A DNA stretch of 64,000 bases from Gallionellaceae bacterium (GTDB lineage: Bacteria; Pseudomonadota; Gammaproteobacteria; Burkholderiales; Gallionellaceae). This document shows positions 48,157 to 64,000 of this stretch, piece by piece. The first letter of the stretch is position 1. Every line of letters begins with the position of its first letter. A model generated the notes under the pieces. It made no database searches and was not told the DNA's origin. It saw nothing but the letters and a program-made list of their open reading frames with translations. The stretch spans positions 1 through 64,000 of the forward strand of contig JAUQWW010000049.1 in NCBI GenBank assembly GCA_030834965.1, read 5' to 3'. The translations under genes were made by a program, and so were the position numbers.

Positions 48157-48903
48157 ATGCTGGCAATTATTGGTGGTACAGGACTGACCCAGTTGGCGAA
48201 TCTGGTAATTTCACATCGCCAGGTGATGCGCACGCCGTATGGCGAGCCTTCCGGTGCGATCACTTTCGGCCATTTGCAGCAGCACGAGGTGATGTTCATT
48301 GCGCGCCACGGCTACGGGCATACCATCCCGCCGCATGAGGTGAATTACCGCGCAAACCTGTGGGCGTTGCACGATCAGGGTGCGAAGCGCGTGATCTCGG
48401 TGGCGGCGGTGGGGGGGATACGCGCCGACCTGTCGCCCGGCGATATCGTCGTACCGGATCAGATCATCGACTATACCTACGGACGGCAATTTACCTACTT
48501 TGACGGAAAAGACCGATCGGTGACGCACATCGATTTTACCCGGCCTTATACCCAGGAACTGCGCCAGCAGATACTCGATGCCGCGAAGCGCGCCAACGAG
48601 GCTTGTCGGGATGGCGGCGTGTATGCCGCCACGCAGGGTCCGCGCCTGGAGACGGCGGCGGAGGTCAATCGCCTGGAGCGTGATGGCGCTGATATGGCTG
48701 GCATGACCTGCATGCCGGAAGCTGCACTGGCCCGGGAGCTCGGCCTGAGTTACGCCACGATTGCGGTGGTGGTGAATCATGCTGCCGGACGCGGCAGCAG
48801 CCGCGATGGCGTGCATCTGGAGAGTATCAGCACGGTGGTGCAGCCTGCCATGGCGCGCGTGCGCAACATTCTGGAATGCGTGGTGGGAAGCGATGGCGAT
48901 TAA
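48157..48903 (+). CDS. S-methyl-5'-thioinosine/adenosine phosphorylase
   Basis: A 248-aa PNP/MTAP family protein with [53 protein letters not shown] and [10 protein letters not shown]. The closest known type is the Pseudomonas methylthioinosine phosphorylase (PA3004), which yields hypoxanthine for Hpt. The neighbouring hpt supports that route over MTA phosphorylase. The start at 48157 follows AAGGAAAAAG. Its 3' end overlaps def by 11 bp. Confidence 0.88.
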
Positions 48904-49429
48904 AGAAGTGCTGCGCATGGGAGATGTGCGCCTGTTGCGCCGGGCGGACGAGGTGACTGCATTTGATACGCCGGATCTACACGCCTTGCTGACTGATATG
49001 TACAACACGATGCGCGCGCTGGAGGGGGCGGGACTGGCTGCGCCACAGATCGGCGTAAACCTGCGCGTGGTAATTTTTGGCGTGGATAGCAACCCGCGCT
49101 ATCCCGAGGCAGAAACGGTTCCGCACACGGTATTGATCAATCCCGTCATCACCCCTGCAGGTAATGACATGGAAGAAGGATGGGAAGGATGTCTGAGTGT
49201 GCCGGGAATGCGCGGGCTGGTGCCACGCTATGCAACCATCCGCTATCAGGGGCAAGACCAGTCTGGTGCGCCGATAGACCGTACTGTGCGTGGCTTCCAC
49301 GCCCGCGTGGTGCAGCACGAGTGCGACCATCTGGATGGAATTCTATATCCGATGCGCGTGAAAGATATGCGCTTCTTTGGGTTTCAAGATGTATTATTCC
49401 CTGATGGGCAATATCCTTTAAGTGAATGA
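48893..49429 (+). CDS. def: Peptide deformylase; 3' end probably supplied by the integrated element
   Basis: A 178-aa metallohydrolase with motif 1 GAGLAAPQI, motif 2 EGCLS and motif 3 QHECDH, binding Fe/Zn through Cys and two His. It removes the N-formyl group from new proteins. From codon 153 (about 49349) onward the DNA becomes A+T-rich (for example ATGTATTATTCC), and a second def 3' end lies at 63351-63428 (PMRIRDMRQFGYSDVLFP). Thus the original tail was displaced by integration and this one reads through into element DNA. The enzyme core is intact. Confidence 0.93.
49349..49357 (+). other. Candidate attL core (left junction of the element)
   Basis: CCGATGCGC in the def codons for YPMR matches exactly at 63351-63359; the flank TA[T/C]-CCGATGCGC makes 11 of 12 identical. 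Sequences upstream (def body) and downstream diverge. The core is short, so the boundary is approximate. Confidence 0.6.
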
Positions 49430-49505
49430 TGTATATCGAAAAATAGACGAATTGAAACCAGCCGAGACAGCATGAAACAGGGCTTGCAGTTTCTAGAAAA
49501 ATTGT

Positions 49506-49555
49506 GTAACGTTGTGGGTAATTCATGCTGTTACCCAATTTCTGATGTGGGTAAC
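49506..49555. promoter_or_regulatory. Candidate integrase arm-binding sites, left end
   Basis: GTAACGTTGTGGGTAA (49506-49521) is followed by the 8-bp inverted repeat GTTACCCA (49530-49537) / TGGGTAAC (49548-49555). A 14-of-16 match to the first word occurs at 63276-63291 near the right end. Repeated short words just before int are typical arm-type sites. Function is inferred. Confidence 0.5.
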
Positions 49556-49571
49556 GTTTTTGGAGCCCACT

Positions 49572-50852
49572 ATGTCGCTGAAAAAATCCGATATCGAAGC
49601 CGCAAAACCGCAGGACAAGCCCTATCGCTTGGCTGACCGCGATGGTCTCTATCTGGATGTCCGCGCCAAGTCGAAATCCTGGCGCTACCGCTACCGCTTT
49701 GCCGGCAAGGAAAATATATGCACCCTCGGGCGTTATCCCGAAATGGGGCGCGACGAAGCGCGCGAAGCGCTGATCGCAGTACGCAAACTGCTGGCGCAAG
49801 GCAAGGACCCGAGCAAGGAAAAAAAGCTGGAGCGTATTCGCGCTGGCCACCAGAACGCACAAACCTTTCGCGCCATCTTTGATGAATGGGTTGCCTCGCG
49901 CACTTGGGCCGAATCGACCAAGCGCAACCGTCTGGCGCAGATCGAATTCCATGTCCTGCCATACCTGGGGCCGCTGCCTGTGCGGGAAATCACTTCCATG
50001 CACGTCCTCGACGTATTGCGCCGGGCGGGAAAGCCTGCGCAAAGCACCAAGAAGGCGGGCAGGGGTGCACGGGTGCGCGATGTCGGCAGCCCGAACGTTG
50101 CCCGCCGGTTACGCCATTACATTGCCAGCGTCTTCAATGTAGCCATTGCCACTGGACGCGCCGACAACAATCCTGCAGGCTCGCTACGCGAAGTGCTCAC
50201 ACCGGCCGTCAAGGCTGCGCACAAAACCCCGTTGAAGCCCAAGCAGATCGGCGAATTCTTGCGCGCCCTCGACGGCTACCGTGGTGATCCCAAGACGGTA
50301 TTGGCATTCCGTCTGCTGTGGTGGTCTATGCTTCGGCCAGGGGAGGTGGTTGCGGCTCATTGGGATGAGTTCGATTTGGAGGCGGCGACATGGACTATCC
50401 CGCGCGCGCGGATGAAGCATAAGAACCCGCACCTCCCGCCGCACATCGTCCCCTTGCCGCACCAGGCAGTAGAAAAGCTTCAAGCGTGGAAAGACTTTAC
50501 AGGAGGCATCGGGCACCTGTTCCCGCACCGCGACAAGCCCGGAACTCCCATGATAGCCAGCACACTTGGCAAGGTGCATGCGCGCATGAAGGGCCTCGAT
50601 TTTGCATACTCGCCACACGCGACCCGCACCACCGCCTCGACACACTTGAACCAGTTGGGATACCGCTACGATGCCATCGAAAAGCAGCTCGATCACGAAG
50701 ACCGCGACGCGATCCGCCGCGCATACAACCGGGCCGACTATCTCGACGAGCGGCGCCAGATGATGCAGCAGTGGGCGGATATGTTGGATGAATGGAAGTC
50801 TGGCGGGAAGGTGATTCCCGTTGGCGTACGCAAGAGCAGCACGGCGACCTGA
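49572..50852 (+). CDS. int: Tyrosine recombinase/integrase, P4-like
   Basis: A 426-aa integrase. The N-terminal arm-binding region (LTKSDIEAAKP-like MSLKKSDIEAAKP, then YRYRFAGKENICTLGRYPEMG) is of the P4/DUF4102 type; the catalytic domain shows Arg in WWSMLRPGEV, HATR-type HxxR in SPHATRTTASTHLNQ, His in QLDHED and the Tyr in RRAYNRADYL. It directs site-specific insertion into def. ATG at 49572 follows GGAG; an extension to 49512 would overlap the arm sites. Confidence 0.93.
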   Translation: MSLKKSDIEAAKPQDKPYRLADRDGLYLDVRAKSKSWRYRYRFAGKENICTLGRYPEMGRDEAREALIAVRKLLAQGKDPSKEKKLERIRAGHQNAQTFRAIFDEWVASRTWAESTKRNRLAQIEFHVLPYLGPLPVREITSMHVLDVLRRAGKPAQSTKKAGRGARVRDVGSPNVARRLRHYIASVFNVAIATGRADNNPAGSLREVLTPAVKAAHKTPLKPKQIGEFLRALDGYRGDPKTVLAFRLLWWSMLRPGEVVAAHWDEFDLEAATWTIPRARMKHKNPHLPPHIVPLPHQAVEKLQAWKDFTGGIGHLFPHRDKPGTPMIASTLGKVHARMKGLDFAYSPHATRTTASTHLNQLGYRYDAIEKQLDHEDRDAIRRAYNRADYLDERRQMMQQWADMLDEWKSGGKVIPVGVRKSSTAT

Positions 50853-50942
50853 CCGTTTCAGGCAAAGCGGGGCGGCACGATGCGGACACACCGCGCCACC
50901 CCTACCACAATGTAGCACCCAACATCAAAGGAGACATACATC

Positions 50943-51713
50943 ATGGATAACGGCAATTTTACATTAACAAGCACCGAAGAAACGCGCGCCGGGGCGATGG
51001 CCTGCCTGGAAGCACTGCGGGCCATACAAAAAATTGCGGAAGATCCCAACCCCGATCGTTCGAAAGCAGGGTGGTGGCTCGAAAAAGATAACGCAGTAGC
51101 GGTCATGCTTCGTGCGGCGGGGAATCCGGGCGGTTTCATGGCGGGTTTTATTGCCACTCTTGCTGAGTATGTAAAGGACGATCTCTCTAGCGTCGGTTGC
51201 TATCCAGATGGTTGGGAAAAGCCGGAAGCCGCCATGACAGACGAGGAAAAGATAGCTTCGCGTGTCAGGCTTGATGAAGAGGTGGCGAGTACTGTTGAGA
51301 ATGGCTGCGTTACCGAAGAAGAAAAAGAGCAGTCATATCAAGAAGCCGCTGCGCAGGCCAGAAAATCAATTAGTGAGATGTTCAACAGCGCGAAAAACTT
51401 TGGGAGCGCATGCGCGAGGCATGTCACGAAAATAGCACCTATCCTGGTGGTGGACGCAGACGGCTATTCTTTCGGAGAAAAAACGGCGGAAAAAATCGGC
51501 CAATCGATCACTGCATTGGGCGAAATTATCAGGGGCGGCGAGATTGTGTTTTTCCCTGCAATCCACGAGCAGTGCCGCAACGAGATCGTGGCCAAAGCAT
51601 TCCAAGGGTGCCGGTACTATTTTACCGAGACTGAAATGGAAGCCAATATCCAGAGGTTCATGACCGAATCGCTTGCAGCCAAAAGCGATGCAGAGACAAC
51701 AGTTTCCGCTTGA
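50943..51713 (+). CDS. Unknown element protein, 256 aa
   Basis: ATG at 50943 follows AAAGGAGACATACATC, an excellent ribosome site. The protein opens MDNGNFTLTSTEETRAGAMA, is acidic in the middle (TDEEKIASRVRLDEEVAS) and has a predicted globular C-terminal half with IAPILVVDADGYSFGEKTAEK and GGEIVFFPAIHEQCRNEIVAKAF. No signal peptide or membrane segment. No known family is recognised. It lies right after int, a position where satellites often carry cargo, and is followed by twin hairpins. Confidence 0.8.
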   Translation: MDNGNFTLTSTEETRAGAMACLEALRAIQKIAEDPNPDRSKAGWWLEKDNAVAVMLRAAGNPGGFMAGFIATLAEYVKDDLSSVGCYPDGWEKPEAAMTDEEKIASRVRLDEEVASTVENGCVTEEEKEQSYQEAAAQARKSISEMFNSAKNFGSACARHVTKIAPILVVDADGYSFGEKTAEKIGQSITALGEIIRGGEIVFFPAIHEQCRNEIVAKAFQGCRYYFTETEMEANIQRFMTESLAAKSDAETTVSA

Positions 51714-51719
51714 GGCAAT

Positions 51720-51760
51720 GTCCGGCCAGACACCCTGGCCGGACCGCCGCGTTAGCGGCG
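51720..51760 (+). promoter_or_regulatory. Twin perfect hairpins between two unknown genes
   Basis: GTCCGGCCAG-ACACC-CTGGCCGGAC (51720-51744, 10-bp stem, 5-nt loop) is followed at once by CGCCGC-GTTA-GCGGCG (51745-51760, 6-bp stem, 4-nt loop). No U-run follows, so it is not a plain terminator. It could be an attenuator, an RNase or protein site, or a transcript-stability element separating the 50943 and 51805 genes. Confidence 0.72.
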
Positions 51761-51804
51761 CAAGCGCGAATATTTACTGGCATTACATCAACCAAGAGGC
51801 TGAC

Positions 51805-52599
51805 ATGGAGAATAGCAATTATCCAAGCTACATTACGAAGGATGTCATTGCTGCGCATGAAAGGGTTGTGCACGACTGGGGAGAGGAAGGCGACATCGTG
51901 GCGCGGCGACTGATCTTTCGCCCGTGCATGGAAAAGGTATATCGGGATGTCGGCAAGCTGCTTAATGGACTGCCAGAGGCGCCTGGCCCATCAGGAAGCG
52001 TGGGGACGCCATGGGATTGGTTTCTCGAAATTATGGTCACGGTGGAGGGCGAATACAATTGGATTTCCAAGACTATTAAGCCGGCGCGAAAGGAACTGAA
52101 ACAGCGCATGAAAAAAATCCATAGTTCAGGTGCACAGTTACTGACAGACTTGAAATGGGCGCTGGGTGGCAGTGATAGGTGGCTCAATCATTTGCAATAT
52201 AACCGCTCGCAATATCACGGATTGAGTCTCCCCGATGAGTTTGAGTTCGAAATGGTCGAAAAACTTGAAAAAATTATTGAGGCTGCCTCAACGTGGGATG
52301 GAAAATCGGCTTATGATGAATTCGCTGCGATTTGTGAGGGAGGGGTTTTTAAGAAGTCGTCACCCGAGATTCATTATGCGAAATCGGTGTACGGTCTTCT
52401 TCGCCATGCTTGCGAGCATGGCTCGTATGGATTTCCGGCAGTTGAGAAATTCCGCCTTCCATATCTGCTTTCCTACGATAACTATGCCCGCATTACTCGT
52501 GCCGCCCTCGATTTGCCTGACGATCTTGGGCCGTACAGGCGACCGTTTTCTGGTGAAGACTTGCGGTTGGCAAAGGCATTTTCCAAAACTACCCCGTAG
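51805..52599 (+). CDS. Unknown element protein, 264 aa
   Basis: ATG at 51805 follows AAGAGGC. The protein opens MENSNYPSYITKDVIAAHERVV and is Trp/Tyr-rich (GTPWDWFLEIMVTVEGEYNWI), with a helical C-terminal half (YAKSVYGLLRHACEHGSYGFPAVEKFRLPYLLSYDNYARITRAALDLPDDLG). No membrane segment, no known family. Its A+T content is higher than that of the packaging genes downstream. A longer frame from 51673 lacks a ribosome site. It may be cargo with the previous gene. Confidence 0.75.
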   Translation: MENSNYPSYITKDVIAAHERVVHDWGEEGDIVARRLIFRPCMEKVYRDVGKLLNGLPEAPGPSGSVGTPWDWFLEIMVTVEGEYNWISKTIKPARKELKQRMKKIHSSGAQLLTDLKWALGGSDRWLNHLQYNRSQYHGLSLPDEFEFEMVEKLEKIIEAASTWDGKSAYDEFAAICEGGVFKKSSPEIHYAKSVYGLLRHACEHGSYGFPAVEKFRLPYLLSYDNYARITRAALDLPDDLGPYRRPFSGEDLRLAKAFSKTTP

Positions 52600-52618
52600 T
52601 TTTTCGCTCACCGAATAA

Positions 52619-52644
52619 CTTAAAATCCTACGGATTATATTAAG
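52619..52644. promoter_or_regulatory. Palindromic A+T-rich site upstream of the AlpA-like gene
   Basis: CTTAAAATCC-TAC-GGATTATATTAAG is an imperfect dyad 52 bp upstream of the AlpA-like start, and includes a TATATT word. It is a candidate operator and promoter, perhaps bound by the HTH protein itself. Only the symmetry is seen. Confidence 0.4.
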
Positions 52645-52695
52645 CACATAGAAGCGGCATGATGCGCCTTGTATCACCAAGTACGAGGAGCAGCC

Positions 52696-52923
52696 ATGCA
52701 AACCAAACGCAACACAATCCCCGACGCATTGCGTCATTTCGATTCCCTTCCCGATAGCGCCTACGTGCGCAGCCGTGTTGTCCAGGGGCTGCTGTCATGC
52801 TCACGCGCGACAGTTCACCGTCGAGTCGCTGACGGAACGCTGCCAGCGCCTACCCACCCTTCACCGGGCATAGCGGCCTTCAAAGTCGGTGATCTGCGCC
52901 GCGCCCTTGCCGCGAGGGGCTAA
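52696..52923 (+). CDS. AlpA/excisionase-like small HTH protein
   Basis: A 75-aa protein with an AlpA-like winged HTH: AYVRSRVVQGLLSCSRATVHRRVADGTLPAPTHPSPGIAAFKVGDLRRALA. P4-type elements carry such a protein to control excision and int expression. ATG at 52696 follows ACGAGGAGCAGCC. It precedes the tiny basic genes and tape measure. Confidence 0.78.
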   Translation: MQTKRNTIPDALRHFDSLPDSAYVRSRVVQGLLSCSRATVHRRVADGTLPAPTHPSPGIAAFKVGDLRRALAARG

Positions 52924-52925
52924 TC

Positions 52926-53093
52926 ATGAACTACAGGGCCACCCCGCGAGGAATGAACGGAATGAGCGAAAACCTCAACAAAACTACCAGACCCGTTGCC
53001 CTGGAGGATGTCATCGCCAACGGCAATAGGGCGCAGCGCAGATTCGCCAAGAAGAAACTCGCAGCAATACCGCGCAGCAAATCCAAGAAATGA
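52926..53093 (+). CDS. Tiny basic protein, 55 aa
   Basis: ATG at 52926, two bases after the previous stop. Product MNYRATPRGMNGMSENLNK... with NRAQRRFAKKKLAA and a Lys/Arg-rich tail (SKSKK). The NRAQRR motif is common in small phage basic proteins. Its stop overlaps the next start (ATGA), showing coupling. Function unknown; nucleic-acid binding is plausible. Confidence 0.58.
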   Translation: MNYRATPRGMNGMSENLNKTTRPVALEDVIANGNRAQRRFAKKKLAAIPRSKSKK

Positions 53094-53245
53094 GCAGGGC
53101 CCGCACTGGAGCCTGGAAAGCGCGGGCGGAGCACAAACGCACAGGGCGTGGCTTCATGCAGATGCTCGCCAAAACCAATCAGCGTCGCACCGATAAAAAA
53201 TGCGCGATCAAGCGCGCAACGGTGGCAAAGATAAAGGGAAGCTAA
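53090..53245 (+). CDS. Tiny basic protein, 51 aa
   Basis: ATG at 53090 overlaps the stop of the 55-aa gene (ATGA), and its own TAA at 53243-53245 is one base before the tape-measure ATG. The product (MSRARTGAWKARAEHKRTGRG... RRTDKKCAIKRATVAKIKGS) is strongly basic. No family recognised. Tight coupling with both neighbours supports it. Confidence 0.55.
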   Translation: MSRARTGAWKARAEHKRTGRGFMQMLAKTNQRRTDKKCAIKRATVAKIKGS

Positions 53246-53246
53246 C

Positions 53247-55199
53247 ATGGCCAACAACGAAACAAAGGTTGTCGTCACCGCCAATACCGCACAAGCAGAA
53301 TCATCGATCAAGACGTTTGGCCAATCGCTGGATTTGACGACACGCAGCATGCTCAACCTAAGCGGAATGGCCGGTACGCTGGGCGGCGCACTGAGCATCA
53401 CAGCCTTTGCGGGATTCATCAAGAGCAGCATTGATGCTGCCGATCAACTCTCCAAGCTCGCGCAGAAGACCGGCACCACGGTGGAAGCGCTCGCCGGGCT
53501 GAAATTTGCCGCCGAACAAAACGATGTATCGCTGGAATCCACCGCGAACGCCGCCAAGAAGCTCGCCACCAACATCGCAGACAATCCGGAGCTGTTCAAA
53601 AAGTTCGGCATCACCGCCAAAGACACCACCGGAGCTTTGGTGCAGATGGCCGACATCTTCGCAGCCATGCCGGACGGCGTGGAGAAATCAGCTCTCGCAA
53701 CCAAGCTATTGGGGAAGGCGCTTGGGGATGAAATGATCCCGTTCCTGAACCAGGGCAGCGCCGAGCTGCAGAGGCTCATTGAAAAGGGGCAGGAGTACAA
53801 CCCGGTAACGGAAGAAAGCGCGAAGCAGGCCCAGGCGTTCAACGACCAGCTAAAGGAGTTGCAGTCCAGTTCAGCCACGCTGGGCGTGACGATTGCGGGC
53901 GAATTGCTGCCAAAGATGAACGAACTGCTCGCGCAGATGATCGAGGGCAAAAAGATATTCGGCGGATTCTGGAGCGCGATGATCGGAGCCGGTGCGATGG
54001 ACCCGGTAAAAACATGGGGGCAGCACGCAAAGGAATTGCGCGCAGAACTCGAAAAGCTCGAAGGCGACCGCGCGAAGAGGCTCGGCGCCGGGATGGGCAC
54101 GAACCTGATCGACACACAAATCGCCGCCGCCAGGCAGAAACTGGAATGGGCGAAATATAACCAGAATCAGGAAGCGCTTGCTGCACTTCCGCCCGGAGGT
54201 TACCGGGACGAGGCCGCTCGTTTGTTGGGAAATGCAAAAAACAAGAACGACGGGAAAGGGATATCCCTGTACGGCGCGCTGGGTGGAGACAGTAAAGACG
54301 ACAAGGTCTTAAAGGCGCCGAAAGATTTCAACCCGGACGCCGATTACCAGTTCGCTATCGATGAGGCGCGGCGCAAGAACAACAAAAAGGCGCAGGAAGA
54401 TTACCTGCGCGATATGGTCAAAGCGGAGGAAGACGCTAACCGCGAATTGCAGCGCAGCGCGCTGGAGGCGCAGGCGATCATCTTCGATGTCGATCCAATC
54501 GCGAAAGCGACTCACGAATGGGAGAAGCTCACTGCGCTGAAGGAGCGCGGCCTGCTCACGGATGAGCAGATCGGCAAGGCGTATGCCAAGACATTCGGCG
54601 AGAACATGGAACAGATGAGTCAGTACGGCAAGCGATTTGCAGAAAATATCCAGCGCAATCTGGGGGACGTTTTATACGATGGGCTTAACGGAAAATTCGA
54701 CAGCATAGGGGATTCGTTCAAGCAAATGCTTGAACGCATGGCGGCTGATGCGGCAGCGGCGCAACTGGCCAAGAAGTTGGTCGGAGATATGGCGACCACT
54801 GGCAATGCTGGAGGATGGGTTGGTGATTTAATGAGTATGTTCTCTGGCGGAAATCCGTTTAGCGGTGGAGGCGGATGGAGCGGCACAGGAACAGCAGCGT
54901 CGAACGGAACAGAAGCTGTTTTAGCCAGCCTTGGCCTGCCTGGGTATGGTGGAACTTTTGCAACCGGCATCGACTACGTTCCACGCGACATGCTGGCCTT
55001 CATTCATAAGGGCGAGCGCGTCGTGCCGGCGGCGCAGAATAACGGAAGCGCAGGCGGTATCGTCTATTCCCCAGTCAACAACATAAGCATTGATTCGCGC
55101 ACGGACCAGGCCGAGGTTCATCGGCTGGTATCGAATGCTATCCGGCAAGGAAATGCTGAGCTTGTTGACAAGCTGCAGCGCGCAGGGGCGCTGGCGTGA
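53247..55199 (+). CDS. Phage tail tape-measure protein
   Basis: A 650-aa protein with an N-terminal helical part (NTAQAESSIKTFGQSLDLTTRSM), a hydrophobic patch (LGGALSITAFAGFI), long Ala/Lys/Glu-rich helices and a C-terminal signature FATGIDYVPRDMLAFIHKGERVVPAAQN typical of lambda-gpH-like tape measures of siphophages. If functional, 650 residues would set a tail near 100 nm (0.15 nm per residue rule). It is far from other tail genes and upstream of replication genes, which is unusual. AAAGGGAAGC precedes the ATG. Confidence 0.86.
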   Translation: MANNETKVVVTANTAQAESSIKTFGQSLDLTTRSMLNLSGMAGTLGGALSITAFAGFIKSSIDAADQLSKLAQKTGTTVEALAGLKFAAEQNDVSLESTANAAKKLATNIADNPELFKKFGITAKDTTGALVQMADIFAAMPDGVEKSALATKLLGKALGDEMIPFLNQGSAELQRLIEKGQEYNPVTEESAKQAQAFNDQLKELQSSSATLGVTIAGELLPKMNELLAQMIEGKKIFGGFWSAMIGAGAMDPVKTWGQHAKELRAELEKLEGDRAKRLGAGMGTNLIDTQIAAARQKLEWAKYNQNQEALAALPPGGYRDEAARLLGNAKNKNDGKGISLYGALGGDSKDDKVLKAPKDFNPDADYQFAIDEARRKNNKKAQEDYLRDMVKAEEDANRELQRSALEAQAIIFDVDPIAKATHEWEKLTALKERGLLTDEQIGKAYAKTFGENMEQMSQYGKRFAENIQRNLGDVLYDGLNGKFDSIGDSFKQMLERMAADAAAAQLAKKLVGDMATTGNAGGWVGDLMSMFSGGNPFSGGGGWSGTGTAASNGTEAVLASLGLPGYGGTFATGIDYVPRDMLAFIHKGERVVPAAQNNGSAGGIVYSPVNNISIDSRTDQAEVHRLVSNAIRQGNAELVDKLQRAGALA

Positions 55200-55292
55200 T
55201 CCTCCATCCCGCATTGCAGGGAGCCACCAAGACTGGCGAATGTAAGCCACGTTCGGTCTGGTCGCCGATCTTACCGGTTCGTACTAGCAAGC

Positions 55293-55715
55293 ATGGCTAT
55301 TGACCAATTACTCTCACGGTTGGATGGTGTTAAACGCACCGGTAAAGACCGTTGGATGGCACGCTGCCCAGCGCATGAGGATAAGCGCGCATCGCTGGCG
55401 ATAACTGAGCTTGGTGATGGACGGGTGCTCTGTCATTGCTTCGCGCTCTGCGATGTTCAATCCGTTCTATCGGCTGTTGGCCTTGAGTTTGACGCGCTGT
55501 TTCCTGAGCGTGCCGTTGATACGCATTGCAAGGTTGAGCGCAGGCCATTCCCCGCATCTGACGTGCTGCGTGCAATCGCTTTTGAGGCGCGCATCGTGAG
55601 CTTGGCAGCACTCGACATGGCGCATGGCAGAACGCTATCAGAAGAGGCGCGCACGCGTTTGCTGTTGGCTAACCAGCGCATTGCTGGCGGACTTTCAGCG
55701 GGTGGGCTGTCATGA
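55293..55715 (+). CDS. CHC2-type zinc-finger protein (primase N-domain-like)
   Basis: A 140-aa protein with primase-like zinc ligands: CPAH (Cys25, His28) and CHCFALC (about Cys47-Cys52), in the context KDRWMARCPAHEDKRASLAI...GRVLCHC. This is the zinc domain of P4/DnaG-type primases encoded apart from the helicase. Its stop overlaps the next start by 4 bp, so it probably works with the downstream primase/helicase in origin-specific priming. Confidence 0.83.
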   Translation: MAIDQLLSRLDGVKRTGKDRWMARCPAHEDKRASLAITELGDGRVLCHCFALCDVQSVLSAVGLEFDALFPERAVDTHCKVERRPFPASDVLRAIAFEARIVSLAALDMAHGRTLSEEARTRLLLANQRIAGGLSAGGLS

Positions 55716-57106
55716 AAGAAGTTGGCGACTCGATAGGCAAACTCGATGCGCTCCTGGAGCGCGAAACTAAAGTAGCAGAGAAAAAACGTAACGCAATCGC
55801 AGCGACACCATCCGGCGCGCTGGCGTTATCCGAGGATTCGCTTGCGTCCGCGTACGAAGAAAAATATGCAGGCCGCCTTCTCTATGCGCACAAATTAGGG
55901 CGATGGTATATCTACGATCCAAAAACAGGGGCGTGGCGTGTTGATACGATGGAGCGAGTCCAGCACTGGGTAAGGGAATTCGTTCGTAGCCTCAACTCCG
56001 AACAGAGGGAAAAATGGGCCAAGGCTTCTATCGTGTCTGCGGTGGATCAATACTGTCGCCGCGCCCCTGCGATGGCGCGCTCAGGCGATGAATTTGACGC
56101 TGATACTTGGCTGCTCGGGACACCATCCGGCGTGCTGGATTTGCGCACTTCAACGATGCTACAAAAATCACCGGAACATTATGTCAGTAAACGTACCTCT
56201 GTTTCGCCGTGCGCAAGCGAGCCAACGCTCTGGCTGACATTTCTTAAGCAGGCAACCGGCGGAGACAAGGATCTGATTGATTATCTCCAGCGTCTTGCTG
56301 GGTACTGTTTGACAGGCGAAACAAGGGAAGAGGTGCTGGTATTTATGCACGGCCCCGGCGGCAACGGCAAGGGCGTGTTTATGAATGTGCTGCGAGACAT
56401 TTTGGGAGAGTATGCGCGCCAGGCACCGATGCAGATTTTCCTCGCCAACAACGGCGACCGCCACCCGACAGAGCTTGCCGCCCTATTTGGCGCGCGCCTG
56501 GTGCTGGCAAGCGAAAGCCCCGAGGGGCGGCGCTGGGATGAAGAGCGTATCAAATCTTTGACCGGGCGCGATGCCATCTCTGCGCGATTTATGAATCGTG
56601 ACTTTTTCGAGTTCATCCCTCGCTTCAAATTGCTGGTTGCATCCAACCACAAACCCAGGATTAAAACTGTTGACGATGCTTGGCGCAGGCGGCTTCACCT
56701 CGTCCCCTTCACCCGCAAACCCGAACAACCAGACCCGGGGCTTAAGGACAAGCTGCGTGGGGAGTATCCGTCAATCTTGCAATGGATGATCGACGGCGCC
56801 GAGTGGTGGTCAAGGGAGGGTCTGGTGCCACCAGCAACGATTACTGAAGCGACAGCCGAGTATTTCAGGGAAGAGGATGTTATCGGCCTATGGTTTGCCG
56901 AGCGCTGCGACAAGTGCGACAGCGTCACTTACACCGAACGCAGCCAGCTTTACCATTCTTATGAGGCATGGTGCCGTGGTATGGGGCACGCAGCCGCAAC
57001 CATGCACTCAATGACGCGATGGTTAACTCAGAATGGTTTTGAGCAGCACAGCACTAATAAGACCCGCCCCATCAAAGGGGTGGTGTTGAAACCGCTGGAT
57101 AGCTGA
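55712..57106 (+). CDS. P4-type primase/superfamily 3 helicase
   Basis: A 464-aa protein with a D5-N/P4 alpha-like domain (about 20-190) and an SF3 helicase: Walker A HGPGGNGKGVF (about 212), LASESPEGRRWDEERIKSLTGRD (Walker B/B' region) and sensor KLLVASNHKPRI with arginine-rich AWRRRLHLVPF. It replicates the excised element from its own origin. The iteron cluster at 57116-57297 just downstream is the likely binding site. It overlaps the CHC2 gene. Confidence 0.92.
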   Translation: MKEVGDSIGKLDALLERETKVAEKKRNAIAATPSGALALSEDSLASAYEEKYAGRLLYAHKLGRWYIYDPKTGAWRVDTMERVQHWVREFVRSLNSEQREKWAKASIVSAVDQYCRRAPAMARSGDEFDADTWLLGTPSGVLDLRTSTMLQKSPEHYVSKRTSVSPCASEPTLWLTFLKQATGGDKDLIDYLQRLAGYCLTGETREEVLVFMHGPGGNGKGVFMNVLRDILGEYARQAPMQIFLANNGDRHPTELAALFGARLVLASESPEGRRWDEERIKSLTGRDAISARFMNRDFFEFIPRFKLLVASNHKPRIKTVDDAWRRRLHLVPFTRKPEQPDPGLKDKLRGEYPSILQWMIDGAEWWSREGLVPPATITEATAEYFREEDVIGLWFAERCDKCDSVTYTERSQLYHSYEAWCRGMGHAAATMHSMTRWLTQNGFEQHSTNKTRPIKGVVLKPLDS

Positions 57107-57115
57107 AATGGTTAT

Positions 57116-57297
57116 TTGCGCACTTGCGCACTTTGCGCAGCGTTTTCCCGTTAATCGGCTATAGGGCATTTTTTGCAATAAGTCTCAAAACAAGTGCGCA
57201 AAGTGCGCAAGTGGCGCATTTCTTTATACGCGGGCGCGCACCCCCGCGCATTAGGGAAACATCCCGAAAATGCTGCGCAAAGTGCGCAAGTGCGCAA
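57116..57297. other. Iteron cluster, candidate replication origin
   Basis: A 25-bp unit starting CTGCGCAAAGTGCGCAAG occurs at 57273-57297 and as a perfect reverse complement at 57116-57140; its 19-bp core TGCGCAAAGTGCGCAAGTG repeats at 57195-57213. Between them lies an A+T-rich stretch (57142-57192). This is just downstream of the primase/helicase gene and has no credible coding frame. The pattern matches iteron-type origins such as P4 ori/crr, but binding is inferred. Confidence 0.78.
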
Positions 57298-57335
57298 AGG
57301 CATCACCTGCATCACACCACTCGAAAGGAAGCAAG

Positions 57336-57605
57336 ATGAGTCACGCTATTGATAGATCATCTGTCGAACTCTCCGCATATCTGCTGGAGCGGCGCAGTTT
57401 ATTTTCTCGGCTTTCCGGCATCGAAACACTTTCCAATAAGTTCCGCGAAGCATGCCGCGATGTCATATCAGCCATGGATCAGTATCAGTCTCGCGATGAA
57501 GGTGAGGCGATGCATGAATTAGAGGCGGCCCTGCATCAATGGGTTCGTGTCGGCAATAACGAGTGGCTGCTGCACGACGATAGCTTGGAGGTGGGGTCAT
57601 GCTGA
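57336..57605 (+). CDS. Unknown element protein, 89 aa
   Basis: ATG at 57336 follows CGAAAGGAAGCAAG. A helical, acidic protein (MSHAIDRSSVELSAYLLERRSLF... ACRDVISAMDQYQSRDEGEAMHELEAALHQW). No family recognised. It overlaps the gpZ-like start by 7 bp, so it is co-translated with the structural genes. Confidence 0.68.
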   Translation: MSHAIDRSSVELSAYLLERRSLFSRLSGIETLSNKFREACRDVISAMDQYQSRDEGEAMHELEAALHQWVRVGNNEWLLHDDSLEVGSC

Positions 57606-58294
57606 ACTTGCGCGTAACGATAACCGGCCTTGATGCCGTCAAGAAGACCATCGCCGACCTAGAAAAACAGACGCGCTACGCCACAGCCGTGGCGCTGACC
57701 CGCACGGCCAAGGCCGTCAAGGATGGGATGCCAGCGGTAATGGAGCGCGAACTCGACAGGCCTACCCCGTTCTCCAAGCGAGGCTTGTTCGTGCAGCCTG
57801 CGCGCCCCATCGACTTGAAGGCGGTAGTTGGGTTTATGGATCGCCAGGCATCCTATCTGAAATACCAGATCGCTGGCGGCGCACGCATGCCAACAGCACG
57901 CGGCATCAAGCTGCCTGGCAATGTCGAGCTTAATTCATTTGGCAACATCCCCAAGGGGTTGATCGACAAGCTCAAGCAGGCGGCGCAGTCTGGCCTGCTG
58001 TCAAAGGCTATCGGCAAGAAGTTGGGCGTTGGCGATCGGCGCAAGGGTGCTGCACCTATCCAGCTCTTTCTCGGCAAGCCCATCGGGCGCGGATGGGAGA
58101 AGGCGCCAATGGGTATATGGCGGCGCGTGCCTGGCAGCCCAGGCAAGTTGATCCCCGTGATCCTCTTCGAAGATACGCCAGCCAAGTACAAGCCGCGCTT
58201 CAAGTTCCACGAAGCGGCAGCATCCATTGTGCGACGCGAATGGGATCGGCAGTTCGCCAACGCCTTTGCCGAAGCCATGAGGACGGCCAAATGA
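57599..58294 (+). CDS. gpZ-like minor tail protein
   Basis: A 231-aa protein with the pattern of phage tail-completion/minor tail protein Z families: ITGLDAVKKTIADLEKQTRYATAVALTRTAKAVKDGMPAVMERELDRPTPF and a basic middle, ending HEAAASIVRREWDRQFANAFAEAM. gpZ-like proteins terminate or cap the tail at the head end. Assignment is moderate; HK97-gp10-like is an alternative. A 20-codon frame overlaps its stop (58291) and is not called. Confidence 0.66.
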   Translation: MLNLRVTITGLDAVKKTIADLEKQTRYATAVALTRTAKAVKDGMPAVMERELDRPTPFSKRGLFVQPARPIDLKAVVGFMDRQASYLKYQIAGGARMPTARGIKLPGNVELNSFGNIPKGLIDKLKQAAQSGLLSKAIGKKLGVGDRRKGAAPIQLFLGKPIGRGWEKAPMGIWRRVPGSPGKLIPVILFEDTPAKYKPRFKFHEAAASIVRREWDRQFANAFAEAMRTAK

Positions 58295-58415
58295 TCAAGG
58301 TACTCCGCCAGCTTTTCCAAGTACGGGTTATTCGCACCGCGTTTTTTGTTTAGTTTTATCAATGCACTAGGTTTCATTAAGCAGTACTTATCCACCACTA
58401 CAGAAAGGAAATATC

Positions 58416-59531
58416 ATGCAACAGAGCCCCGTAATATCTACCCACCATCGCCAGCGGCGCGTCCCGGCTGCCATCGCCCATGCCGCGCTTGCCCACGAAG
58501 AAGCAAGCAAGGTTAATCCGACAGAGGGCTTTCGCAGCTTTGGTGAATTCGTCTATCAAGTAAAGCAGGCATGCACCGGCCCCGCTGCCGACCCACGTCT
58601 GGTACGCGCAGCAACCACCTTCGGAAGCGAGGGCGTTGGCCCATCGGGCGACTATGCGGTTCCTTCGGCGTTCGCACAAGAAATTGCCAGCCTCGCTTAC
58701 AGCGAAGGGTCGCTGCTGCCGCTGTGCAGCGAGTTGCCGATCAGCAGCAGCACCGTCGATATTCCGCGCGACGAAACCACGCCCTGGGGGTCAACCGGCA
58801 TCGTCGCCGCATGGGAAGGCGAAGGCGGGCAATCCGCACAGAGTAAGCCTGACCTTGATTCAACCTCATGCCGCCTGCGGAAACTGAAGACACTTGTGCC
58901 GATTACCGACGAACTGTTGGAAGACTCGCCGGCAATGGAAGGCTATCTCAAGCGCGTGATGAGTGCCGCCATATGCTGGAAGATAAACGACGCGATCATC
59001 AACGGCACCGGCGCAGGGGTTCCGCTTGGCATCCTCAAGGCACCTTCCTTGATAGTGCAAGCCAAGGAAGGTGCGCAGACCGCAGACACCATCAACGCTG
59101 CGAACGTGACGAACATGCTATCCCGCGCGATTCTGACCGGAGGCGGCAATATCGTCTGGCTCATCAATCCTGATGCCTATGGGCAGGTGATGAGCCTCGT
59201 CTTGAATGAGTCGCCAATCTGGACACCCGGCACCAGCGTCGATGCACCCAACGGCCTGCTGCTTGGCCGCCCCATTGTGCTGACGGATGCCTGCCAGACC
59301 TTGGGCGATCAAGGGGACATCATCCTGGCAAATATGAGCGGATATCAGGCTGTCACCCGTGCAGGCGGTGCCGTGCTCGCGAGCAGCATGCATCTGTGGT
59401 TTGACCAGGACATTACCGCTTTTCGCCTGACGTTCCGTATGGATGGCCAGCCGCTGTTGTCGGCAGCAGTCACCCCGCCCCATAGCACGGTAACGCGCAG
59501 CCATTTTGTCACCCTGGCCGTACGTGCCTAA
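58416..59531 (+). CDS. Phage major capsid protein, HK97 fold
   Basis: A 371-aa protein with the HK97-type pattern: GPSGDYAVPSAFAQEIASLAYSEGSLLPLCSELP, a core EDSPAMEGYLKRVMSAAICWKINDAIINGTGAGVPLGIL, and a C-terminal P-domain strand MHLWFDQDITAFRLTFRMDGQPL. The N-terminal region before GDYAVP is about 75 residues, shorter than the 103-residue HK97 delta domain. No head protease is seen, so maturation may not need cleavage or uses a helper's. AGAAAGGA precedes the ATG at 58416. Confidence 0.9.
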   Translation: MQQSPVISTHHRQRRVPAAIAHAALAHEEASKVNPTEGFRSFGEFVYQVKQACTGPAADPRLVRAATTFGSEGVGPSGDYAVPSAFAQEIASLAYSEGSLLPLCSELPISSSTVDIPRDETTPWGSTGIVAAWEGEGGQSAQSKPDLDSTSCRLRKLKTLVPITDELLEDSPAMEGYLKRVMSAAICWKINDAIINGTGAGVPLGILKAPSLIVQAKEGAQTADTINAANVTNMLSRAILTGGGNIVWLINPDAYGQVMSLVLNESPIWTPGTSVDAPNGLLLGRPIVLTDACQTLGDQGDIILANMSGYQAVTRAGGAVLASSMHLWFDQDITAFRLTFRMDGQPLLSAAVTPPHSTVTRSHFVTLAVRA

Positions 59532-59578
59532 AACACGGGCCGGAATAACACCGGCCCATTGATGAAAGGAAACACATC

Positions 59579-60226
59579 ATGCAAAACAACATACCAAACG
59601 AAATTCTTGAGTACGTCAACAAGAAAGGCATCCTTGAGCGCATTGCGGAAACGCAACAGGCGGAGCGCGAAGAAGAACGCGTCCGCCTGGCAGAAGAAAT
59701 TATTGCCCTCAAGAAACACGAAGCCGAAATACTGCCGCCCCTACTGGAGCGCCAGCGTAACGCCAGAGCAGCTCTGGAGGCCGCAGAAGTCGCGCTGCAG
59801 CAAGCCCGCGTGGAACTTGCCGAAGCCAATTCACAGGTTATTGCCGCTGACACAAGTTTCCGTATAGAGCGGCGCCACAACCTGCTTGCCGGGCTGGCCG
59901 ATCCGCGTATCCATGGCGCCATCACTCAGCTGCTCAACTTCGATGAAAAGGCCCGCCAGGGTGGGTTTAGCGCTTGGACACAGACCGAGAAAAAATGGGA
60001 CGGTGATAAGACAAAGATTGAGTGCAACAACTCCGATGTGCTGGAAGCGGTTCGCGCTCAAATCCGCAAGGCCGTCACCGATCTGGAAGCGCTGTTATAC
60101 GCGCCCCGCCCGGCCAACCTGTCCGAAATCCTGGAAGCGGCGCTATCTGCAGGCGAGGCCGCCTGCCATCGCATCGGCGTCACCGTGCACCGCGCCGACC
60201 ACCTGGCAAGCATTACGAAACACTGA
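59579..60226 (+). CDS. Coiled-coil protein, possible scaffold
   Basis: A 215-aa protein with a long coiled-coil (about residues 15-90: RIAETQQAEREEERVRLAEEIIALKKHEAEILP... ARAALEAAEVALQQARVELAEANSQ) and a globular tail with two Cys (IECNNSDVLEAV, EAACHRIGV). It lies between the capsid and small terminase genes. Position and coiled-coil suggest a scaffold or head-assembly role; no family is recognised. Confidence 0.72.
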   Translation: MQNNIPNEILEYVNKKGILERIAETQQAEREEERVRLAEEIIALKKHEAEILPPLLERQRNARAALEAAEVALQQARVELAEANSQVIAADTSFRIERRHNLLAGLADPRIHGAITQLLNFDEKARQGGFSAWTQTEKKWDGDKTKIECNNSDVLEAVRAQIRKAVTDLEALLYAPRPANLSEILEAALSAGEAACHRIGVTVHRADHLASITKH

Positions 60227-60230
60227 CGCC

Positions 60231-60722
60231 ATGCGCATCATCGGCCAGACCGAAATCGCCGCCATCTTTGGCGTCACGCCACGCACCATCAACGAATGGC
60301 AGGATGCCGGCATGCCCGTTGCCGTACAGGGCGGTCCCGGCGTGCCTGGCGAATACGACAGCGAGGCATGCATCCGCTGGCGGGTTGAGCGTGAAGTCGC
60401 CAAGGTGCAGGGGCCGGAAACGCCAAAGGACCGGCTCGCGCGCCTGCAGGGCGACGATCTGGAAATGAAGCTGGCACGCGAACGCGGCAAGCTGATCGAG
60501 AAAGCAGCCGTCGAACCGGCCATGCGTGCCGCCATCGTCTCGGCACGCGAGCGCGTGCGCAACGAGCCGGCGCGCATCGCCGCACAAATGGAGAGCCTTG
60601 ATCGCGCCGGGCGGGAAGCCCTGCTGCGCGATCTCTTGGATGAAGTGCTGACCAAGCTTTCCCGCTGGCAGCAGGTCGGCACATACGATGGCGAACAACA
60701 AGCCGATGAATGCGCCGCTTGA
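60231..60722 (+). CDS. Terminase small subunit, gpNu1-like
   Basis: A 163-aa protein with a winged HTH (IIGQTEIAAIFGVTPRTINEWQDAGMPVAVQGG) and a helical part (LARLQGDDLEMKLARERGKLIEKAAVEPAMRAAIVSARERVRNEPARIAAQM), as in lambda gpNu1, which recognises cos for packaging. Its 3' end overlaps the TerL start by 35 bp, a common Nu1-A coupling. Confidence 0.88.
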   Translation: MRIIGQTEIAAIFGVTPRTINEWQDAGMPVAVQGGPGVPGEYDSEACIRWRVEREVAKVQGPETPKDRLARLQGDDLEMKLARERGKLIEKAAVEPAMRAAIVSARERVRNEPARIAAQMESLDRAGREALLRDLLDEVLTKLSRWQQVGTYDGEQQADECAA

Positions 60723-62793
60723 CCTGACGGGTACGCTCGCTACCGGCTGGGCCGATGCCACGCTGGACGCCCTGATAGCTTCTGTCTGGAGTGAGTTTGC
60801 GCCGCCGCCGCGCCTGAGCATCGATGAGTGGGCCGAGCGTTATCGCGAGCTGTCGCCCGAAGAATCGCCGATCCCTGGCCCCTATTCGCTCGAATATACG
60901 CCCGTGCTGCGCGAAATCCTGCGCGCCTGTTCAGATCCCAAGGTGCGCAAAGTAGTGGTGCAGAAATCGGCGCAGCTTGGCTATACCGTCGGTGTTGTCT
61001 GCAACGTCATGGGCTATCACGCGCACCAGCGCCCGAGCGTGCAGATTGCCGTATTCCCGCGCGAGAAAAGCGCCAAGGATTTCGCTGCGGAGAAGTTCGA
61101 CCCCATGGTGCGCGCCACCAAACCACTGGCCGAGCGCATCAGCCTGAAAAGCCGCGCGGCCGGCAACAGCCAGACCCGCAAGCATTATCCTGGCGGCCTG
61201 ATCAAACTTGTCGGCAGCAACTCGCCCAGCGACGTGAAATCGACCAGCGCCCGCGTGGTGATCGTCGAAGAGCCAGATGATGCCAGTAACAACGTGCGAG
61301 GCCAGGGCGACGCCATCAAACTGGCGGAAGAGCGCGCGAAAGCCTACCCCGACCACCTGATCCTGATAGGCGGCACCCCGACCGCGAAGGGCGCGAGCAG
61401 CATCGAACAAGAGATACTTGCCAGCGATCAGCGCAAGTTCCATGTGCCATGCCCGCACTGCGGCGACGAACATATCCTCGCATGGGACCACATCATCATC
61501 CCCGAGGATGACGAGCAGCCCCGCGAAATCTACGGCCGCTCCCGCTGGGAAGATGCCTTCTACACCTGCCCGGCCTGCGGCACAGCGTGGACTGAAGAAG
61601 AACGGCACGACGCCATCCGGCGCGGACATTTTGAGGCGACGGCGCCCGCCACCGCCGCCGTCGGCTTCCTGGTTAACGAGCTGCTGTCCACCTTCGACGG
61701 CTCGCGCGTCCCTGTGCTGGCCCGTAAATACCTGGAGGCGAAACACAAACAGGACGAGGGTGATCACAGCGAGATGGTCGCCTTCTGGAATTCCACGCTT
61801 GGGCTGCCGTGGGAGTATCGCGGCGAGCTGCCCGAGGAAGACGAACTGCGCGCCCGCGCAGAAGCCTACGCCGAATGGACAGCGCCAGATGGCGGCCTGA
61901 TCCCCGTGCTCACTGTCGACGTGCAGCATGATCGCCTGGCCGTCACCTGCTGGGTGATCGGTCGCCGCGAGGAAATGTGGCTGGCCTTCTGGGGCGAGCT
62001 GCACGGCCAGACTATCGTCCCATTTGCCGGTGCATGGCAGGAACTCGACAACCTTCTGGAAAACACCGTGCGGCACGCCAGCGGTTCCGCTCTGCCAATT
62101 GCCGCCGTTGCGCTCGATTCATCGGACGGCCAGACCAGCGGTGCGGTGTATGACTACGTGCGCAAGCGCAACCGCCCGGGCCGCCCCGTGTATGCGATCA
62201 AGGGCGCAAGCGATAGCGAGGGAAAAATCGAAATATGGCGCCAGCCGCAGGCGCAATCGATCGAGCCGCACTGGAATGGGCGCAAGTCCGCGAAGTATGG
62301 CGTGCATGTGCACATTGTCGGCACGGCCAAGGCGAAAGACAGCATTCTTGGCTGGGCGCAGGAAGGCGGGCGCGTGCGGCTGACCGGCGGCGGCCCGCAC
62401 CGCATGCACTGGTATGAAAACGTCCGTCCCGACTTTTATGAGCAACTGCTGTCTGAAATCAAAATTCCGATGCGCCAGAACCCAAAGCGGCGCCAATGGA
62501 AGAAGCGCACAGACCGGCGCAATGAAGCACTGGATTGCACCGTGTACGCACTCTGGCTGGTGCATGCCCTGCGGCTGCACATACAGAAGCCCGCCTGGTG
62601 GGATCACACCGAAGAAAAAATAAGGCAGCGCGGACTGTTCGAGGCGGAAGCTGCTGCGGCAATCCCCCCAATCGAGCCTGCAACAATAAGCGCTGGAGAG
62701 ACTGACCCGCAAGCGCCAGCGGAGACGGAAGGCGAATACAAACAGCCGGCGCGGCGCAACCGCCCGCGCCAGGGATTCGCTACGCGATGGTGA
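60688..62793 (+). CDS. Terminase large subunit, lambda gpA-like
   Basis: A 701-aa packaging ATPase/nuclease. Walker-A-like KSAQLGYTVGV (about residue 93; the last Lys of lambda's KSARVGYSK is Val here), Walker B VVIVEEPDDAS, a zinc-like CPHC/CPAC pair (about 256 and 297), and nuclease Asp in LTVDVQHD, ALDSSDG and EALDCTVYALWL. It packages DNA into proheads from cos sites. It is intact, which suggests the element packages its own genome. Confidence 0.92.
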   Translation: MANNKPMNAPLDLTGTLATGWADATLDALIASVWSEFAPPPRLSIDEWAERYRELSPEESPIPGPYSLEYTPVLREILRACSDPKVRKVVVQKSAQLGYTVGVVCNVMGYHAHQRPSVQIAVFPREKSAKDFAAEKFDPMVRATKPLAERISLKSRAAGNSQTRKHYPGGLIKLVGSNSPSDVKSTSARVVIVEEPDDASNNVRGQGDAIKLAEERAKAYPDHLILIGGTPTAKGASSIEQEILASDQRKFHVPCPHCGDEHILAWDHIIIPEDDEQPREIYGRSRWEDAFYTCPACGTAWTEEERHDAIRRGHFEATAPATAAVGFLVNELLSTFDGSRVPVLARKYLEAKHKQDEGDHSEMVAFWNSTLGLPWEYRGELPEEDELRARAEAYAEWTAPDGGLIPVLTVDVQHDRLAVTCWVIGRREEMWLAFWGELHGQTIVPFAGAWQELDNLLENTVRHASGSALPIAAVALDSSDGQTSGAVYDYVRKRNRPGRPVYAIKGASDSEGKIEIWRQPQAQSIEPHWNGRKSAKYGVHVHIVGTAKAKDSILGWAQEGGRVRLTGGGPHRMHWYENVRPDFYEQLLSEIKIPMRQNPKRRQWKKRTDRRNEALDCTVYALWLVHALRLHIQKPAWWDHTEEKIRQRGLFEAEAAAAIPPIEPATISAGETDPQAPAETEGEYKQPARRNRPRQGFATRW

Positions 62794-63071
62794 GCGATTG
62801 CATTATCGATTTCATCATGGGTCTCGTGGAAGAAGAAGCACGCAAGGCCGGGATCCACTTCCCGGTCGAAATGCGGAAAGCGATCGACCGTCGCACCCGC
62901 AACACATGGGGCGGCAGCGAGCCATATATCGCCCATGGAAGGGAGGCGCGCATCATCGAGCGCAACGAAAAGATCGTCGCGCTGTGGGATGCCGGCAACC
63001 ATGACGTGCGCATGCTGGCGACCCGCTTCGGGCTTTCGACCAAGCAGGTGCGGCGGATTGTCAGAAAATGA
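62787..63071 (+). CDS. Mor-like transcription activator
   Basis: A 94-aa protein with NTWGGSEPYIAHGREARIIERNEKIVALWDAGNHDVRMLATRFGLSTKQVRRIVRK: the strand plus HTH pattern of the Mor/C activator family of Mu-like phages. ATG at 62787 overlaps the TerL stop. Such proteins switch on late genes, so it may drive the element's own or a helper phage's late genes. The family call is by pattern, not search. Confidence 0.66.
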   Translation: MVSDCIIDFIMGLVEEEARKAGIHFPVEMRKAIDRRTRNTWGGSEPYIAHGREARIIERNEKIVALWDAGNHDVRMLATRFGLSTKQVRRIVRK

Positions 63072-63126
63072 GCAGGCGCCGCTCTTTAATGGAGTTTATA
63101 CCGCCACTCGAGTAGAGGACTTCGGC

Positions 63127-63165
63127 CCCATCACCGCGAGAGAGCAGACCCATGGCGGTGATGGG
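63127..63165. promoter_or_regulatory. Perfect 11-bp inverted repeat after the last element gene
   Basis: CCCATCACCGC (63127-63137) and GCGGTGATGGG (63155-63165) are perfectly complementary with a 17-nt loop. No U-run follows. It may end the late transcript, or be a recombination or cos-associated site. Confidence 0.55.
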
Positions 63166-63275
63166 TGGCGTACCTTCCGGTGCTGACCTCCTGGCAGTGA
63201 CACGGTGCACCCTTACCCGCGAATACGATCATCAAGTGCGGATGGCGTCGCAAAAATCAGCGAAAGTGATAGCGG

Positions 63276-63291
63276 GTAAAGTTGTGTGTAA
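63276..63291. promoter_or_regulatory. Candidate integrase arm-binding site, right end
   Basis: GTAAAGTTGTGTGTAA differs from the left-end word GTAACGTTGTGGGTAA (49506-49521) at two of sixteen positions and lies 60 bp before the right junction. It is a likely arm-type site for integrase or excisionase. Confidence 0.45.
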
Positions 63292-63350
63292 ACCAATTTT
63301 ATCCACCTCGAAAACAAGCAACAACAATGGTCTTGGAAGCTATCCAATAC

Positions 63351-63428
63351 CCGATGCGCATACGTGACATGAGGCAGTTTGGTTACTCTGACGTGCTGTT
63401 CCCCAACGGCGGCGTGATGGAAGAATAA
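63351..63428 (+). pseudogene. def: Displaced native 3' end of def (attR)
   Basis: Beginning at the shared core CCGATGCGC, the plus strand reads PMRIRDMRQFGYSDVLFPNGGVMEE and a TAA at 63426-63428, which matches the end of a peptide deformylase (compare [21 protein letters not shown] at the intact gene). It has no start and is G+C-rich like the def body, unlike the current def tail. This is the original chromosome tail cut off by integration. Confidence 0.85.
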
Positions 63429-63854
63429 TGGGTATGTCCATCGCAGAATAGTGACTGGCGCGCAATGTGCCACATGTTGTCCGCGATGCTGGGTTAAGCT
63501 TGTGCCCTGTAAAATTTCTCCCGGCCATTATGCATAGTGGCTCTGTTATGGAAACTTTCACAGCACCTTAAAGAGCGGTCGATCTAGTGAGCATTCGAGG
63601 CATTCACTAGAGTTGCCGGCCAGCCATCATTAGTTCCTCTCAGTTTTGAATAACAAGCAAGTGCGTGGCTCATAGGGCTTGATCGCCGCAAAATGGACGG
63701 TCTACTGTAGAGGTGTTACCCTTTAATTGCTATTGGTCGCCAAGGGTGCGCATGCAGAATAAGTTCCCCTTCATCCCGATGATAAACATGGGCGGCACAC
63801 TTGCTCGCGATTCGACCATAACCCGAGGTTTGAAATTTTTTGATGAGGTAAAAA
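63429..63854. other. Intergenic region between def remnant and rnk
   Basis: About 425 bp with no gene that can be supported on either strand. It contains the promoter region of rnk; GATGAGGTAA precedes its ATG. No tRNA or repeat was recognised. Confidence 0.4.
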
Positions 63855-64000
63855 ATGAAAGCAAGACCCAAGGTGATACTTTCGACGCTTGATGCAGAGC
63901 GGCTGGACAGGCTTCTGGAATCACTGCCCAGCAGCGCGATCCCGGGCAAGGCAGACCTGGAGGCGGAGCTGGCACGCGCAGAGGTGATGGATCCGAAAAA
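63855..64000 (+). CDS. rnk: Regulator of nucleoside diphosphate kinase (Rnk), 5' part
   Basis: ATG at 63855 follows GAGGTAAAAA. The 48 visible residues (VILSTLDAERLDRLLES, then ADLEAELARAEVMDP) match the N-terminal coiled region of Rnk, a GreA/GreB-like protein that binds RNA polymerase. The gene runs off the window end, so the C-terminal FKBP-like domain is not seen. Confidence 0.8.
   Translation, partial: MKARPKVILSTLDAERLDRLLESLPSSAIPGKADLEAELARAEVMDPK

Follow-up and report, generated by a model that had tools for sequence, protein, structure and literature searches.

Elements integrated in tRNA or protein genes usually carry, within their attP, a replacement for the end of the target (PMC10111431). 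In such gene-restoring elements, a tyrosine integrase lies beside attL, the target is made whole by attP and the displaced original 3′ fragment is found at attR, an arrangement shared by the locus described here, where the target is a peptide deformylase gene (def) of a Gallionellaceae bacterium. Gene-restoring integration into protein genes is already known, and def adds another target, in several different hosts. In the literature searched, no description of a deformylase as attachment site was found, the matches being incidental; an earlier listing in a target survey is possible.

The stretch analysed, called the window below, has 64,000 nt and corresponds to positions 1 to 64,000 of the forward strand of contig JAUQWW010000049.1 (assembly GCA_030834965.1). 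It very probably contains a phage-derived element integrated in a second-type def, with an attP-borne tail replacing the displaced original end of the gene. The features on which this reading is built are the following.

48893..49429, + strand: def, second-type peptide deformylase with host body and element-borne tail (Pfam Pep_deformylase, 3.1e-49; PDB homologue 5kob)
49349..49357, + strand: attL core CCGATGCGC; crossover probably within CCGATG, 49349-49354
49358..49429, + strand: replacement def tail from the element, 23 residues, 37.5% GC; resembles the tails of other element carriers, not native tails
63351..63359, + strand: attR core CCGATGCGC, repeat of the attL core
63351..63428, + strand: displaced original def 3′ end, PMRIRDMRQFGYSDVLFPNGGVMEE followed by a stop (genome def search, native-tail comparison)

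The initial annotation of this DNA had noticed an orphan def 3′ end starting at the core of an intact def 14.0 kb upstream, and this is confirmed. Searching the whole genome with def returns three matches, namely def itself, a paralogue of 36% identity on contig C5, and the orphan (E 4.5e-6). The orphan, read from 63348 to 63428 in the same register as def, translates as YPMRIRDMRQFGYSDVLFPNGGVMEE up to a stop at 63426-63428, and it scores 106 against the native-tail consensus versus 29 for the best other 26-codon stretch in the rest of the window on both strands. Taken alone, the 9-mer CCGATGCGC is unremarkable, with five copies in the window for 2.65 expected; homologous coding sequence starts at those of positions 49349 and 63351, which are 14,002 bp apart. 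When the flanks are joined at the core, an uninterrupted def of 177 codons ending in NGGVMEE results. In the present gene, which aligns to residue 172 with 5kob, its closest solved homologue, the coding sequence after the core occupies 49358-49426 and the stop codon 49427-49429. The A+T richness of this tail, also pointed out initially, is borne out (37.5% GC, the def body having 58.9%): of 1,411 windows of 72 nt from the chromosomal genes just upstream, not one is as rich in A+T.

Since half of each att site must be element-derived, the flanks alone cannot fix polarity, and the present def tail could in principle be native, with the orphan tail being element cargo from another host. Comparison with relatives makes this reversed polarity highly improbable. 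In element-free relatives, def ends in (I/M)RD(L/M)R.FG(F/Y)S(D/E)(V/A)LFP, with variations, and the orphan is of this type. A DNA query of 952 bp running from the orphan onward was searched against 120 genomes of the family, as was the present tail. It matches 26 of them: the window's own genome, four that match the rnk region and 21 others in which the match starts at query base 1 and covers only the first 32-85 bases, that is the orphan itself. Where inspected, these 21 matches are def 3′ ends, and they stop at about the stop codon. The reverse control, made with the present tail and the next 142 bp, matches only five of the 120 genomes: the window, the L033 genome (76% over the whole query), G002, and two def genes without interruption, weak native homologues matching over ~60 bp only; the present tail accompanies, in essence, the element alone. 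In this sample, the element-type tail is thus carried by three of the 120 genomes. At the nucleotide level, native tails resemble the orphan at up to 40 of 54 positions and carrier tails resemble the present tail at 37-42 of 54. Tails of the present type (FGFQDVL) were encountered again only next to this integrase or remnants of it, and their hosts belong to different families. The foreign composition of the present tail and the position of the G002 orphan, which occupies the native junction downstream of def (see below), likewise speak against the reversed polarity. A scan of IMG/VR with a tail-specific 17-mer gave 15 matches, none of them in def context.

The genome does possess a second def, so that the orphan might be what is left of that gene or of a def duplication independent of the element. 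The probability of such an origin is negligible: the C5 def, next to fmt, ends in FVEYLSQLKQSRIRAKIKKHRRETF, unlike the orphan, and the orphan has no def sequence upstream of the shared core at which it starts, as is also the case in other genomes. Between the orphan tail and rnk lie ~430 bp without evident gene (63429-63855), a flank that adjoins def in no relative found; this region may hold a further insertion or mark a rearrangement of older date. No empty-site relative with the window's own right flank was found, and in G450 rnk (90% identical) adjoins other genes.

The pair formed by an attL def and an orphan attR tail is also present in three other host genomes. In L033 (Gallionellales RIFCSPLOWO2_02_FULL_59_110) and in L034 (Sulfuritalea), integrase relatives of 86% and 81% identity, respectively, start shortly after def, with the orphan tail 9.7 kb downstream in the former and 15.0 kb downstream on the Sulfuritalea contig (L034/L098). 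The third case, G002, belongs to another genus of the family. There, a def with the element-type tail is followed by an element-like left end, the integrase is not intact, and attL and attR are on separate contigs. Directly after the G002 orphan comes a K+-channel-like gene, and the same gene is located 3-95 bp after def in 15 empty-site relatives. The left end of this element (L099 4548-6447) passes from def tail and arm-like repeats to a broken integrase start and then to an unrelated repeat-rich coding sequence, and is either a contig chimera or a copy that has decayed or been rearranged. In another locus with an integrase relative (~45%) starting shortly after def, L070, attL alone is visible and the tail could be native rather than element-type. 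In addition, a 13.3-kb IMG/VR contig encodes an integrase piece (85% identical) and a terminase (84%), its right end consisting of the terminase large subunit followed by an orphan def tail. In all carriers def is open to its stop.

The integrase of the window begins 142 bp past the present def stop.

49572..50852, + strand: tyrosine integrase, 426 aa, with arm-binding, core-binding and catalytic domains (Pfam)

Arm-DNA-bind_3, Phage_int_M and Phage_integrase all score above cut-off in it, and R255, H349, R352, H375 and Y385 are invariant across the four def-adjacent integrases. In a tree of 61 integrases these four form one side of a branch (support 99/92), while a neighbouring clade of 42 holds all 40 integrases labelled ychF, a label given by recognizing the gene from its translation; further groups lie beside other genes. 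Shuffling the labels never gave a value as low as the observed grouping, although near relatives inflate such tests. From the sequences, the tree is read as indicating that the use of def arose once, inside an integrase group favouring the 3′ ends of conserved protein genes. The ychF-adjacent sister integrases, ~40-45% identical, start ~170-290 bp after ychF in 41 loci (L035-L057, L059-L062, L078-L080, L086, L095 and L104-L112), mostly in Betaproteobacteria-type hosts and Pseudomonas, with one host labelled Micavibrio. Their attachment repeats are mostly not visible within the flanks examined; in L045 a copy of the last ychF codons and stop lies 6.7 kb downstream of the integrase.

Taken together, native tails, reverse control, recurrence, G002 synteny and integrase clade support the initial proposal of def as an integration site with tail replacement. 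The locus displays the integrase domains, the bounding direct repeat, the open attL frame and, in relatives, the uninterrupted target that characterize a target-restoring element of the tyrosine-integrase type. According to the model proposed, the 14,002-bp phage-derived element would have entered by site-specific recombination, presumably performed by this integrase, between the attP core and the Tyr-Pro-Met-Arg codons of the second-type def. The attP would supply the last 23 codons anew and in frame, so that attL reads as an intact chimeric def, and the host's original last codons would be left at attR as the orphan. Excision, the reverse reaction, would restore the original gene; the orphan tails being still open, a full gene would be recovered, and the element is probably still able to excise.

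The crossover can be delimited further. Just 5′ of CCGATGCGC, the window has different bases at attL (TAT) and attR (TAC), and the codons that precede attR (AIQ) do not resemble def, which places the exchange 3′ of this position. In G002, the att sites diverge just 3′ of CCGATG (CGG versus AGG). Provided that the site is shared between elements, the exchange would fall within CCGATG, the Pro-Met codons of residues 153-154, which follow closely on the active-site helix (134-148 in the AlphaFold model). The attL/attR repeat has nine exact bases in the window and 18-20 bp in L033 and L034, and the predicted junction of the circular attP is CTATCCAATAC joined to CCGATGCGCGTGAAAGATATG. Both ends of the element carry candidate sites for the arm-binding domain of the integrase.

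49514..49554, + strand: two GTGGGTAA repeats 33 bp apart, candidate integrase arm-type sites, left end (same spacing in L033, L034 and G002)
63213..63279, no strand assigned: inverted pair TTACCCGC / GCGGGTAA, candidate arm-type sites, right end (repeat search)

GYGGGTAA repeats 33 bp apart occur at the left end of four elements, with similar copies at the right ends of the window element, L033, L034 and L223; they are absent from the right end of G002 and from the interiors of the three complete elements. For the arm sites of the integrase, these repeats are the best candidates.

Between the cores, the element (49349-63350; 14,002 bp) encodes phage functions.

53247..55199, + strand: tape-measure-like protein (PHROGs)
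55293..57106, + strand: primase zinc-finger ORF and D5-like primase/helicase (Pfam/PHROGs scans)
57599..58294, + strand: minor tail protein, phrog_1924 (PHROGs; 81% identical to that of the L034 element)
58416..59531, + strand: HK97-type major capsid protein (Pfam Phage_capsid, 1e-47)
60222..60722, + strand: terminase small subunit, Nu1-like (Pfam/PHROGs scans)
60688..62793, + strand: terminase large subunit, GpA type (close to the right end here, as in L033, L034 and L223)
62787..63071, + strand: Mor-like late transcription activator (Pfam/PHROGs scans)

Pfam and PHROGs scans of the larger ORFs of the element revealed no portal, protease, tail tube or lysis gene, so that the complete head, tail and lysis modules of an autonomous temperate prophage are not seen. 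The tape-measure-like gene precedes the primase genes near the left end and is separated from the remaining virion genes, which is unusual for a prophage. Overall, the element is either a satellite or a reduced prophage. Its closest similarity to the L033 and L034 elements lies in the integrase and the large terminase, and the position of the terminase near attR is constant. This terminase is ~80% identical near the right end of four def elements (60688-62793 in the window; 15172-16998 in L033; L098; L223), the other genes of which differ widely, with sizes of 9.7-15 kb. It is possible that the def elements are a satellite lineage with its own large terminase. A more ambitious version, in which a small terminase-carrying satellite lineage is dedicated to second-type def and its C-terminal swap both preserves and alters the deformylase at work in the carrier, is quite improbable.

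Concerning the target itself, the initial annotation had seen an essential gene used as attachment site. This view is not supported: on C5 the other def is intact in its canonical arrangement, upstream of fmt and in the neighbourhood of dprA and a LysM-domain gene (gene names read from translations), so that the element targets a second deformylase. In three genomes of one genus of the family (G007, G017 and G032), the second def has a single frame of 234 residues whose match is split in two, pointing to some 15-20 residues inserted near residue 89.

Whether the replacement tail matters is a separate question from its origin. The target deformylase may be redundant and its loss cheap, the insertion being real and simply tolerated; this is unlikely, though with an appreciable chance of being right. 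The intact def-fmt operon on C5 fits such a view, as does the location of the tail outside the catalytic core: in the AlphaFold model of the chimeric protein the core is mostly confident and the tail low (pLDDT 52-58), hence the model is no test of the tail. Conservation of the tails argues the other way. The four carrier tails each keep 23 open codons and the FGFQDVL motif, and in frame their synonymous changes exceed non-synonymous ones (pS 0.56 and pN 0.26; 0.50 and 0.15 over the first 14 codons), with no such excess in the other frames; from these few short sequences, the excess suggests selection on the protein. Thus, of the functional replacement tail proposed initially, the replacement stands, while a function for the tail is inferred from the intact frame and the synonymous excess, and the chimeric enzyme probably works. 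The E. coli deformylase is brought to the ribosome by a positively charged helix at its C-terminus (PMC3130931). A natural swap experiment on the deformylase C-terminus is offered by the long divergent replacement tail.

With displaced native tails, shared element-borne tails and one integrase clade, def joins the protein-gene integration sites on unusually clear evidence. Its att sites may serve genome insertion in relatives of these hosts, and the def and ychF clades together constitute a tractable case for how integrases change targets. Among phage satellites, the element resembles PICIs and capsid-forming PICIs in its size class (10-15 kb), its integrase, primase, capsid and terminase genes and the lack of a full recognized tail or lysis set; unlike them, it has its own GpA-type large terminase and could equally be a reduced prophage. 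The ychF-adjacent systems are alike in having a related integrase (~40-45% identity) shortly after a conserved protein gene. They differ in the position of the repeat, which in L045, the one locus with a downstream copy, extends over the final codons and the stop of ychF and makes a long tail unnecessary. Other gene-restoring elements differ from the def element in their target, here a second peptide deformylase interrupted 23 codons ahead of its stop, and it is this internal cut that obliges the element to carry a long, divergent tail.
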